A stretch of 32,717 nt of DNA, from the NCBI GenBank assembly GCA_038746835.1, contig JBCDKH010000019.1:1-32717 (forward strand), in the 5' to 3' direction. Each line of letters opens with the position of its first letter. The first letter of the stretch is position 1. A program made the position numbers and the translations under genes. Source of the stretch: Planctomycetota bacterium. GTDB lineage: Bacteria > Planctomycetota > Phycisphaerae > Tepidisphaerales > Tepidisphaeraceae. Under the pieces are notes generated by a model. The model had not been told where the DNA came from. It did no database searches and saw only the letters and a list, made by a program, of their open reading frames with translations. Shown here piece by piece: positions 3,098 to 23,104 of the stretch.

Positions 3098-4117
3098 ATG
3101 CGACGCCTCGTCCTTGCCACCGTGTTGAGCTTCCTGGTCTCGCCAATTGCGGCTTTGGCTGCCGGTGAGGTCAACGTGTACTCGTCACGCCACTACGACT
3201 CGGACGACGAGCTCTACGCGCTCTTCACCGAGCAGACTGGCATCGAGGTCAACATCATCGAGGGCAACACCGACGAGCTGATCACGCGGCTCGAGCGTGA
3301 GGGCGACCTGAGCCCGGGCGACATCTTCATCGCGGTCGATGCCGGGCGACTGCACAAGGCGGTCGAGGCCGACCTGCTCCAGCCGACGCAGTCGGACGTG
3401 CTGGCCGAGCGGATTCCCGAAACGCTGCGTCACCCGGACGGCCTGTGGTTCGGATACAGCAAGCGGGCCCGCGTCTTCGTCACCAGCCCCGACATCGACG
3501 CCGACTTCGTCACGACGTATGCCGAGCTTGCCGACTCGAAGCTGGAAGGCTCGCTCGTCATTCGCTCGTCGAGCAACATCTACAACCAAAGCCTCGTCGC
3601 CGCGATGATCGCTCGCTACGGCACCGAGGCGACGCAGAACTGGGTCGACGGCATGGTGGAGAACTTTGCCCGTCGGCCGCAGGGTGGCGACCGCGATCAG
3701 ATTCGCGCCGTTGCCGCAGGCGAGGGTGATCTGGCGGTGGTGAATCACTACTACTTCGCCCGCATGCTCGCCGGGAGCGACGCCGCCGACCGCGAGGCCG
3801 CCGGCAAGCTCACGCTCATCTGGCCCGACCAGCAGGGCGACGGCGTGCACGTCAACGTCTCGGGTGCCGGCATGCTCAAGAACGCCCCGAACGCCGAAAA
3901 CGCCAAGGCCCTCCTCGAATTCCTTGCGAGCAACGAGGCTCAGAAGCTTTGGGCGTTGGCCAACTTCGAGTACCCGGTCGTCGAGGACTCCTCGCTGGAG
4001 CTGCCCGACGTGCTGGTCGGCTTCGGCACGTTCAAGTCCGACTCGGTCAACGCGGCCAAACTGGGTGAGAACAACCGCGAAGCCGTCCGCGTGATGGACC
4101 GCGCCGGTTGGCGGTGA
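3098..4117 (+). CDS. iron(III) ABC transporter substrate-binding protein (FutA/FbpA type)
   Basis: The 339-residue exported protein captures ferric iron outside the inner membrane and delivers it to the permease. A signal peptide is clear: MRR, a hydrophobic stretch to about residue 17, and AALA-A near residues 19-22. The mature start, EVNVYSSRHYDSDDELY, is typical of FutA/FbpA/IdiA proteins. So is the tyrosine pair Y218-Y219 in AVVNHYYFARML, which matches the iron-ligating tyrosines of the family. The length is normal. It is the first gene of a three-gene operon, and its stop overlaps the permease start by 4 nt (GTGA). The regulator is not identifiable from the sequence; a Fur-type repressor would be expected. 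Specificity for iron rather than another metal rests on family resemblance. Confidence 0.93.
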   Translation: MRRLVLATVLSFLVSPIAALAAGEVNVYSSRHYDSDDELYALFTEQTGIEVNIIEGNTDELITRLEREGDLSPGDIFIAVDAGRLHKAVEADLLQPTQSDVLAERIPETLRHPDGLWFGYSKRARVFVTSPDIDADFVTTYAELADSKLEGSLVIRSSSNIYNQSLVAAMIARYGTEATQNWVDGMVENFARRPQGGDRDQIRAVAAGEGDLAVVNHYYFARMLAGSDAADREAAGKLTLIWPDQQGDGVHVNVSGAGMLKNAPNAENAKALLEFLASNEAQKLWALANFEYPVVEDSSLELPDVLVGFGTFKSDSVNAAKLGENNREAVRVMDRAGWR

Positions 4118-14311: not shown

Positions 14312-15133
14312 GTGCAGCAGCCGTCGGCAGACACCCTTCTCCAACGCGTCCGATCGCTCGACGACTGGTTTCACAATCTCAAAATCCCCGACGGCCATGG
14401 CGGCACGATCCAGACTCGGCCCGATCACCCCTTTGGCGACTTTCCGCAGTTCAAGTGGGATCAGGTCGCCCCGCACCTGCCGGCCGACCTTTCGGGCAAG
14501 ACCTGCCTCGACGTGGGCACCAACAGCGGCTTCTACGCCTGCGAGCTCGCCAAACGCGGCGGACGCGTCCTCGGGATCGACCTGAACGACCACTACCTCG
14601 CCCAGGCCGACTTCGCACGCAAGGCGATGGGTCTCACGGGCCGCGTCGAGCTGCGCAACGTGCAGGTCTACGGCCTGGCCGCGGATGCGGAGGCGGGGCG
14701 TCGGTTCGACGTCATCCTGTTCATGGGCGTCTTCTACCACCTGCGCTACCCGCTGCTCGGGCTCGACGTCGTGAGCAAGCTCCTGGCAGACGACGGCCTG
14801 TTGGTCTTTCAGACGCTCGAAGCCCCGGGTGCCGAGCCGTTGCCCGTCGAAGAGACGCGGAGCCTGACGTTCCTGACGCGCGATCGTCTGGCAGACCCCG
14901 GCTGGCCGCGGATGCACTTTTTCGAGGACGGGTTCAACGGCGACCCGACCAACTGGTGGGCACCGGACCGATCGGGCGTCCTGGCGATGCTGCGATCGGC
15001 AGGCTTAAAGGTCGTGGGCGAGCCGGGCGACGAGATGTACCTCTGCCGGCCCAGCCCGACCCCGCCGCCGGGGCTGCCGGAGTTGCGTCGCGACGAGTAC
15101 GTCGCCGCATTATCGGGCCTCAGCGGACGCTGA
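14312..15133 (+). CDS. class I SAM-dependent methyltransferase, CmoB-like
   Basis: A 273-residue methyltransferase. Motif I is CLDVGTNSGFYACELAKRG, followed by the acidic strand end in VLGIDLNDHY. A later motif is DVILFMGVFYHLRYPLLGLD, with the FYHLRYP pattern shared with tRNA wobble-uridine enzyme CmoB and the TIGR04290 family. The N-terminal WFHNLKIPDGHGG followed by DFPQFKW is also typical of that group. CmoB itself needs carboxy-SAM; whether the specific residues are present here I cannot judge, so the substrate is left open. The start is a GTG at 14312; an upstream ATG (14304) is in another frame. The 3' end overlaps the convergent ThiL-TsaE gene by 14 bp. Confidence 0.82.
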   Translation: MQQPSADTLLQRVRSLDDWFHNLKIPDGHGGTIQTRPDHPFGDFPQFKWDQVAPHLPADLSGKTCLDVGTNSGFYACELAKRGGRVLGIDLNDHYLAQADFARKAMGLTGRVELRNVQVYGLAADAEAGRRFDVILFMGVFYHLRYPLLGLDVVSKLLADDGLLVFQTLEAPGAEPLPVEETRSLTFLTRDRLADPGWPRMHFFEDGFNGDPTNWWAPDRSGVLAMLRSAGLKVVGEPGDEMYLCRPSPTPPPGLPELRRDEYVAALSGLSGR

Positions 15134-16469
15134 TCCGGCGGGCGTCTTCGCCGAGGTGTTCGATCTCGACGGTCATCGCATCGCTCGGCAGCAGCTCAGC
15201 CACGCGGTCCGGCCATTCGACGACGACCACGTCGCCGTTGCGGGTGTCGTCGAGCAGCTCGCCGAAGCCGATCGCCTCGAAGTCATCGCTGCCGGCGACG
15301 CGGTAGGCATCCAGGTGATGCAACCGTCGACCGTCAGCGATCGGGTAGGTCTGGTGCAGGACGTACGTTGGCGAGGAGACGTCGGCCCTGTCGCCGCCGA
15401 GGGCTTCGACAATGCCTGCGACGAAGGTTGTCTTGCCCGCCCCGAGGTCGCCCACGAGCCGAAGGACGCCGCCACGTTCGAGTCGTTGTGCGACGCGGCT
15501 CGCCACGGCATGGGTCTGGGCGACGCTGGTCGAGGTGGTGACGTCTGCCCCGTGGACGAAGCCGCCCGGGGCGATCGTGATGACGTCATCGGTCGACGCC
15601 GCGGCGCTAGCCGCGGATCGGGCTGGCTCGATTGAATCAGCCTCGGATCCGCGGCTGGCGCCGCGGCGTTGCAGACGGATGCCGGTTCCACCGTCGACCG
15701 TGCCGATCGCGATCGCGTCGACGCCTTCGGGCGCGCGATCGGCAGCGAACAGCAACTCGTAGTCCTCGCCGTCGTTCAGGGCGTGTTGCAACGCGTCGCC
15801 GTCGAGTTGGCGCGCGTCGTCGTGGATCGGGACGTGCGTGAGCGTCGCGCCCAGGCCGTCGAGGAGCTTGGGCAGGTCGCCCGCGAGGCCGTCGGAGAGG
15901 TCCATCATCACGGACAGGCCGATCGCGTCGGCTTGGTCGGCCAGTCGCCGCCCTTCTGTAAGTCGTGGCGTGAACGTCAAATGCCTGCCGAGGATCGATC
16001 CGCCGAGTGGGCCGGTGACGAAGAGCTGCTGCCCGACGCGCACGCCGGTTCGCGGGACGGGCTGGTCCGCCGTGCCGAGGACGGCGACGACGATGGCCGT
16101 CGGGGCGTCCCATACGGCGAAGTCGCCACCGACGAGCACGCAGTCCGCCTCAGTCGCGGCCTCGGCAACGCCGTCGACGATCTCCAGGGCCGTGTCCAGT
16201 GACAAGTCGCGCGAGGCGACGAGCGAGAGCAGCAGTGCCGTTGGCTGGCCGCCCATGGCTGCGACGTCGCTGAGATTGCGATTCGCCGCCTTCCGCCCCG
16301 CCGCAAGGCCACCGGCCTCGGCCAGCCGCACGTGGACGCCGTCCAGCACCGGATCGATGCCCGCGAGCAGCTTGCCCGCCGGAGACGGCAGCACCGCCAG
16401 GTCGTCGCCTACGGCCGGGACGCGCCTTCGCAGCGCGTCGAGGAAGTCTCGCTCGTTGAGCCCGGCCAC
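15120..16469 (-). CDS. ThiL-TsaE fusion: thiamine-monophosphate kinase joined to tRNA t6A ATPase
   Basis: A 449-residue single open frame with two complete enzymes. Residues 1 to about 308 are ThiL, which phosphorylates thiamine monophosphate to thiamine diphosphate. Visible motifs are AVGDDLAV, AANRNLSDVAAMGGQPTAL, VGGDF, VTGPLGGS, MMDLSDGLAGDL and LNDGEDYELLFA. Residues from about 311 are TsaE, the ATPase of the tRNA t6A37 complex: RLVGDLGAGKTTFVAG (Walker A), DVSSPTYVLHQTYP, RLHHLDAYRV and VVVVEWPDRVAELLP. The start is a GTG at 16469. Residues 267-292 are encoded by a 74-nt palindrome that interrupts the end of the ThiL domain, just before its GGFVHG segment, which resembles the GYDHF end of ThiL. 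The two activities are in unrelated pathways, so the fusion is unexpected. Confidence 0.9.
   Translation of the reverse strand: MAGLNERDFLDALRRRVPAVGDDLAVLPSPAGKLLAGIDPVLDGVHVRLAEAGGLAAGRKAANRNLSDVAAMGGQPTALLLSLVASRDLSLDTALEIVDGVAEAATEADCVLVGGDFAVWDAPTAIVVAVLGTADQPVPRTGVRVGQQLFVTGPLGGSILGRHLTFTPRLTEGRRLADQADAIGLSVMMDLSDGLAGDLPKLLDGLGATLTHVPIHDDARQLDGDALQHALNDGEDYELLFAADRAPEGVDAIAIGTVDGGTGIRLQRRGASRGSEADSIEPARSAASAAASTDDVITIAPGGFVHGADVTTSTSVAQTHAVASRVAQRLERGGVLRLVGDLGAGKTTFVAGIVEALGGDRADVSSPTYVLHQTYPIADGRRLHHLDAYRVAGSDDFEAIGFGELLDDTRNGDVVVVEWPDRVAELLPSDAMTVEIEHLGEDARRISVR
15596..15669. repeat. palindromic element inside the thiL-tsaE coding sequence
   Basis: The two 24-nt arms (15596-15619 and 15646-15669) are reverse complements with one mismatch (23/24). 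The left arm reads ACGCCGCGGCGC then TAGCCGCGGATC. The 26-nt loop contains a further small inverted repeat (GGCTG/CAGCC). The element is in frame and encodes an Arg/Ala/Ser-rich stretch (RRGASRGSEADSIEPARSA) where ThiL proteins have only a short loop. It resembles in principle the protein-coding palindromic elements known from Rickettsia, with unrelated sequence. Confidence 0.85.
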
Positions 16470-20967: not shown

Positions 20968-20981
20968 CTTCGCCACTCTCC

Positions 20982-21061
20982 GTCATCCCGAGCGCAGCCG
21001 AGGGACCTCGCAATGACAAGCGGACGAGGTCCTTCGACTCGCTGCGCTCGCTCAGGATGAC
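20982..21061. repeat. palindromic intergenic repeat, copy 2 (inverted relative to copy 1)
   Basis: The left arm (20982-21011) begins GTCATCCCGAGCGCAGCCGA and ends GGGACCTCGC. The right arm (about 21023-21061) ends CGCTGCGCTCGCTCAGGATGAC. The shorter, CCCGAGC-type arm is on the left here but on the right in the copy at 2930-3020, so the two are in opposite orientation. It lies between the convergent stops of the FHA gene (20967) and thyX (21095), where its hairpin could end transcription from both sides. Confidence 0.85.
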
Positions 21062-21094
21062 GGAGGAACGCTCGGTGCGAACGGAGTGGATGCG

Positions 21095-22920: not shown

Positions 22921-22982
22921 GCGTCCACCCTAGCACGGGCGACGCGCTGCTCGATTCTGATCAGTGCCCCGAAGCCGAGAGC

Positions 22983-23068
22983 AGAGCGCAGCGTCGCTCC
23001 GGGTCTGATCGACTGACAAAAGGAACCCGACTCACGCTCGTCCCCGACCCGGGGTGACGCTGCGCTCT
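22983..23068. repeat. long inverted repeat between cysteine desulfurase and membrane gene
   Basis: The arms at 22983-23005 and 23046-23068 (23 nt each) are reverse complements at 21 positions. The left arm begins AGAGCGCAGCGTCGCTCC and the right arm ends GACGCTGCGCTCT. The loop is 40 nt. It is unrelated in sequence to the repeats at 2930 and 15596. It sits 37 nt after the desulfurase stop and 63 nt before the TTG of the next gene, so it could act as a terminator or attenuate the downstream pair. Confidence 0.75.
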
Positions 23069-23104
23069 ACCCACAGCTTCGACCTGTGACTCCAACGAGA
23101 GATG

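Follow-up and report, generated by a model that had tools for sequence, protein, structure and literature searches.

The palindrome inside the fused thiL-tsaE gene of this planctomycete is very probably a REPIN-like miniature mobile element made of two inverted 24-nt REP hairpins, the copy in ThiL being a tolerated selfish insertion. It lies in a stretch of 32,717 nucleotides (hereafter the window) from a MAG in 335 contigs with a completeness of 96.6% and a GC content of about 66%. Two 24-nt arms pairing at 23 positions had been noticed in a preliminary description, and the inverted repeat is indeed present (15596-15619 and 15646-15669; 24 nt, 96% complementary, one mismatch, 26 nt apart). 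Each 24-nt arm is itself a hairpin (Table 1). Folded as single-stranded RNA, the element reaches -63.9 kcal/mol (z = -8.8), a value equalled by none of 200 shuffles. Rfam matches to the hairpin were far under the gathering scores and were discarded. The idea that the arms are stop-free by design was also abandoned, as three of the six frames of the element are open, slightly fewer than in shuffles.

Table 1. The palindromic element and its host gene in the window
Feature	Position	Strand	Remarks
Whole element, inverted REP pair, probably REPIN-like	15595..15670	.	76 nt tag to tag
REP unit 1	15595..15618	+	perfect match to family pattern; stem covariation
Unit 1, tag GACG	15595..15598		
Unit 1, stem	15599..15605		
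Unit 1, loop GCTA	15606..15609		
Unit 1, stem	15610..15616		
Unit 1, AT	15617..15618		
Spacer, 28 nt	15619..15646	.	not conserved among copies
REP unit 2, inverted	15647..15670	-	AACG-CCGCGGC-GCCA-GCCGCGG-AT; one mismatch to family pattern (tag A for G)
Fused thiL-tsaE ORF, host of the element	15120..16469	-	449 aa; PF00586 and PF02367; fold match to ThiL structures
TsaE part	15123..15533	-	residues 313-449 of the fused protein; PF02367 at 315-445; separate gene in relatives
Codons 267-292 of the thiL-tsaE ORF	15594..15671	-	QRRGASRGSEADSIEPARSAASAAAS; 24 residues extra relative to relatives

The host ORF stays open across the element, as first described, and its Pfam domains identify it as a ThiL-TsaE fusion; its model matches known ThiL structures. 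Family relatives, unlike the window with its single ORF, have thiL and tsaE as two genes, which lie side by side in many genomes; ThiL ends there with a sequence like '...GIWLSRDGSREALAAEGWQHSL'. Alignment with eight family relatives reveals a clean in-frame insertion between 'GIRLQ' and 'GGFVHG', with no counterpart in any of the eight. The place proposed for the extra ThiL residues, between IRLQ and GGFVHG, was thus correct, and their number has to be amended from 26 to 24. Residues 271-296 are predicted by AlphaFold to be disordered (pLDDT < 50), beside a ThiL core that is modelled with its fold intact and a pLDDT mostly above 90. Of the genomes compared, this one alone has both the fusion and the insertion, and one could imagine that the inserted stretch has taken on a function as a linker connected with the fusion of ThiL and TsaE. 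We hold this to be very improbable: the insertion lies within the C-terminal region of ThiL, ahead of its conserved GGFVHG end and not at the domain junction, the inserted stretch is predicted to be disordered, and peptides of this same type are found in unrelated enzymes.

A search with the 74-nt element as query returned three more full-length paired copies from the same genome (G000), plus single arms; the arms are conserved and the centres differ. What recurs is the 24-nt arm, which is a REP hairpin, and not the 74-nt whole that had been supposed, the spacers of the copies being unrelated. With the unit consensus GACG-CCGCGGC-GCNA-GCCGCGG-AT, searched as GACG-CCGCGRC-GCNA-GYCGCGG-AT with up to three mismatches, 35 matches were obtained in this genome (14 of them perfect) and none with the reversed control. 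At 0-1 mismatch there are 28 matches in this genome and three in G022, from the same family; the other 296 of the 298 genomes of the class have none. The genome G022, which belongs to another genus of the family, has GACG REPs of its own (L121, L128), of the form GACG-CCACGGC-GCGA-GCCGTGG-AT with compensatory stems. A GC content of about 66%, together with several matches that encode DAAAQAAD-like helices, might suggest that the palindrome arose by chance in coding sequence rich in Ala, Arg and GC. Codon-permuted control patterns run on 229 kb of the genome, however, gave no match at 0-1 mismatch against the 28 real ones, which rules out codon bias as the origin of the arms. Neither codon bias nor a unique element, two of the objections foreseen in the preliminary description, can be upheld. 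The copy number refutes the chance reading, and the near-absence of the unit from the class, the presence of intergenic paired copies and the covariation of the stems speak against it as well, so that we attach practically no probability to it.

This covariation was measured on 32 distinct units from the two GACG families of the genome and from G022. The stem is paired in 97.3% of cells and shows 31 double changes, a result that none of 500 shuffles reaches; slid controls give 25-40%. The compensatory variants include CCGCGAC/GTCGCGG, CCGAGAC/GTCTCGG, CCGAAGC/GCTTCGG and CCACGGC/GCCGTGG, substitutions that resemble those of REPs which act as single-strand hairpins. Inverted pairs occur at seven loci, are 69-88 nt long with the tags outside, and have arms 89% identical and spacers 28% identical. 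With conserved ends and unrelated spacers, these seven loci are REPIN-like, and they match the doublet architecture described for such elements (PMC3116915).

The suggestion, made from the single copy, that the palindrome would be found elsewhere in the genome and would tolerate coding sites was borne out. When matches with up to two mismatches are counted as loci, each pair once, 24 loci result, about 18 of which lie in ORFs of recognisable or weakly recognisable proteins and five between genes, with one left unassigned. The hosts comprise ThiL-TsaE, NAD-dependent DNA ligase (ligA), valyl- and cysteinyl-tRNA synthetases (valS, cysS), topoisomerase VI B, ribonucleotide reductase (nrdJ), a metal ATPase, a glycosyltransferase, two amidohydrolases, an aldehyde dehydrogenase, GltX, FumC, FabD, an acyl-CoA synthetase and RhaI, as well as a symporter-like protein just below the cut-off and a FlgN-like protein below it. 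The bacterium would thus make enzymes with repeat-encoded stretches. ThiL (24 aa) and LigA (8 aa, against relatives and also against E. coli LigA, 2owo) each show a definite net insertion. In TopoVI-B, NrdJ, CysS, the ATPase and ValS, alignment with relatives places the unit in variable loops, where net insertion is ambiguous.

Conserved helices of GltX, FumC, the acyl-CoA synthetase, FabD and RhaI (L096, L111, L108, L109 and L100, respectively) hold one unit each, without mismatch in GltX and with one mismatch in each of the others. At these points the relatives are equally long or almost so, with little or no net insertion. To judge by the controls, a chance origin of these five units is unlikely; simple insertion does not account for them either, and they count against it as the only process. 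They might be due to gene conversion, to template switching or to selection for the motif. The last of these, extended to the whole family, would make the unit a host-selected DNA or RNA motif (a binding site, an attenuator or an mRNA hairpin) that evolves where it stands, in the manner of uptake or chromosome-organising motifs, and not a mobile element. Although the five helix units, beyond chance as they are, favour such a motif, we consider it improbable given the true insertions in ThiL and LigA, the inverted-pair architecture, the small number of loci (about 24), the absence of the family unit from the other genera of the family except G022, and a sister family that flanks a transposase gene.

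The sister unit, GACG-CCGAAGC-GGAA-GCTTCGG-GT, differs from that of the window's family by compensatory stem changes; its pattern has 76 matches in the genome where the control has 15, and some of the 76 belong to the window's family. Inverted pairs of this unit are found on both sides of a Y1-type ORF on contig C16 (L158, 1279-1821, minus strand). The encoded protein scores under the Pfam and NCBIfam cut-offs. Its HxH motif and tyrosine (H98, H100, Y157) are invariant among homologues, and its model matches structures of ISDra2, IS608 and a REP-bound RAYT (Foldseek: 2xm3, 2vjv, 4er8). The HxH motif, the catalytic tyrosine and the IS200 fold of the model are those of an HUH Y1 transposase. This IS200-like Y1 protein, of TnpA-REP/RAYT type, is likely to be the mobiliser of the family; that it also moves the window's own subfamily is inferred through the link with the sister family. 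In this fragmented MAG of 335 contigs, no transposase gene turned up with the window's own subfamily at its flanks, and the flanks of C16 homologues in the genomes of the family contain no GACG-type REPs. The best-scoring RAYT of the genome (C87, L083), a typical one above the NCBIfam cut-off, was rejected as the obvious mobiliser, its flanks carrying an unrelated palindrome, CACGAACTGAAGTTCGTG / CACGATCTTCAGATCGTG.

Another transposase sequence occurs within the only valS found in the genome (contig C157, L132). There, a 660-nt segment (3317-3976) with a Y1 transposase domain (PF01797) shares the open frame of valS and is bordered on each side by an inverted pair from a third REP family, GAGCCCCGAGCGTGAGCGAGGGG, which has 56 matches in the genome and none with the control. 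The segment is absent from the relatives compared. One unit of the window's family and two more pairs, one from the sister family and one from the third, also lie in this valS. From this third family also comes an in-frame 'SPERERAGSGDRSEPLADAQGS' insertion at about residues 159-190 of FumC. A bolder reading, which we regard as unlikely, is that the REP system both inserts and overwrites: single units would have replaced native codons in GltX, FumC, FabD and the acyl-CoA synthetase, and a whole REP-flanked transposase gene would have moved into the only valS, which is still read through. If so, HUH-driven strand exchange could write a REP over similar host sequence, and REPtrons could transpose whole.

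For the element in ThiL, the mobile-element reading would run as follows. Two inverted copies of a REP hairpin (5' tag GACG, 7-bp stem, GNNA loop) form the element, whose single-stranded DNA would be mobilised in trans by a C16-like transposase, probably at replication forks. An insertion in an essential gene would survive only where it keeps the frame, brings no stop into the host frame and falls in a loop, and the ThiL copy would encode a disordered loop that has acquired no part in the synthesis of thiamine or t6A. Counting against this reading, a search of GTDB with the ThiL protein brought up no close relative in which the site is empty, and the lengths of the coding pairs (76, 71 and 88) disagree modulo 3 and yield no fixed target-site rule.

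Protein-coding palindromes would on this evidence be a recurrent outcome of REP transposition, linked to a candidate transposase and not peculiar to Rickettsia, and annotators may read such enzyme segments as mobile-element peptides. The C16 locus, with its flanking GACG-tagged repeat, makes the transposase question testable in vitro, CGTC-type repeats having been reported without a transposase (PMC3733652). According to one view, REPtrons do not transpose as a unit (PMC6006769); the REP-flanked transposase ORF within valS is relevant to this question.

Among known systems, the REPINs and GTAG-REPs associated with RAYTs (Bertels and Rainey 2011, PMC3116915; work on TnpA-REP, PMC6006769 and PMC8266576) share with the present family inverted doublets of about 70 nt (here at seven loci) with conserved ends and a variable spacer, multi-copy hairpins with compensatory changes, singlets that are likely remnants, and a Y1 gene, flanked here by the sister family. 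The family differs from them in its GACG tag, where theirs is GTAG or GTGG, in the mostly intragenic position of its copies and in a transposase remote from typical RAYTs. Class 3 TnpA-Y1 proteins, enriched in Planctomycetes with atypical REPs (PMC6006769), resemble C16 by motif (HxH, Y----Q) and by context, among atypical non-GTAG hairpins; their reported 5' foot is CnGA, whereas it is GACG here.

The CGTC-tagged REPs, including Rickettsia RPE-4 and RPE-6, are likewise short tagged hairpins with a 4-nt loop, mostly in head-to-head dimers, with intragenic copies in several species (PMC3733652). They are reported to have a CCA tail, stems of 8-9 bp that begin with AT, and no link to transposase genes (PMC3733652). 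The window's family departs from this description: its 7-bp stem starts with CC, the complement of CGTC, GACG, stands at its 5' end, its 3' end is AT, and its sister family flanks the C16 transposase gene. Elsewhere in the window, an inverted pair CTCCGTCATCCCGAGCG / CGCTCAGGATGACGGAG (20978-21065), downstream of a long FHA-like ORF, looks like a pair of REPs with a CGTC tag and belongs to a different family; an inverted repeat of 36 nt, 83% complementary around a spacer of 40 nt, lies at 22970-23081.

The Rickettsia palindromic elements of Ogata and Claverie are described as in-frame palindromes in essential enzymes, tolerated at surface or disordered sites, and ThiL and LigA offer the same in-frame insertion in conserved protein genes; the units here differ in being 24-nt REPs tied to a REP-flanked transposase. 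The preliminary description named coding palindromes for Rickettsia and none for planctomycetes; they are not confined to Rickettsia: Di Nocera et al. (2013) reported intragenic REPs in several phyla, with many in Rickettsia conorii and in Opitutus terrae, a PVC bacterium, as well as REPs in planctomycetes and, in several species, in DNA ligase and tRNA synthetase genes (PMC3733652). Intragenic REPs are thus already known; what is new here is the non-GTAG tag, the mostly coding sites and a whole REP-flanked transposase gene within an essential gene.
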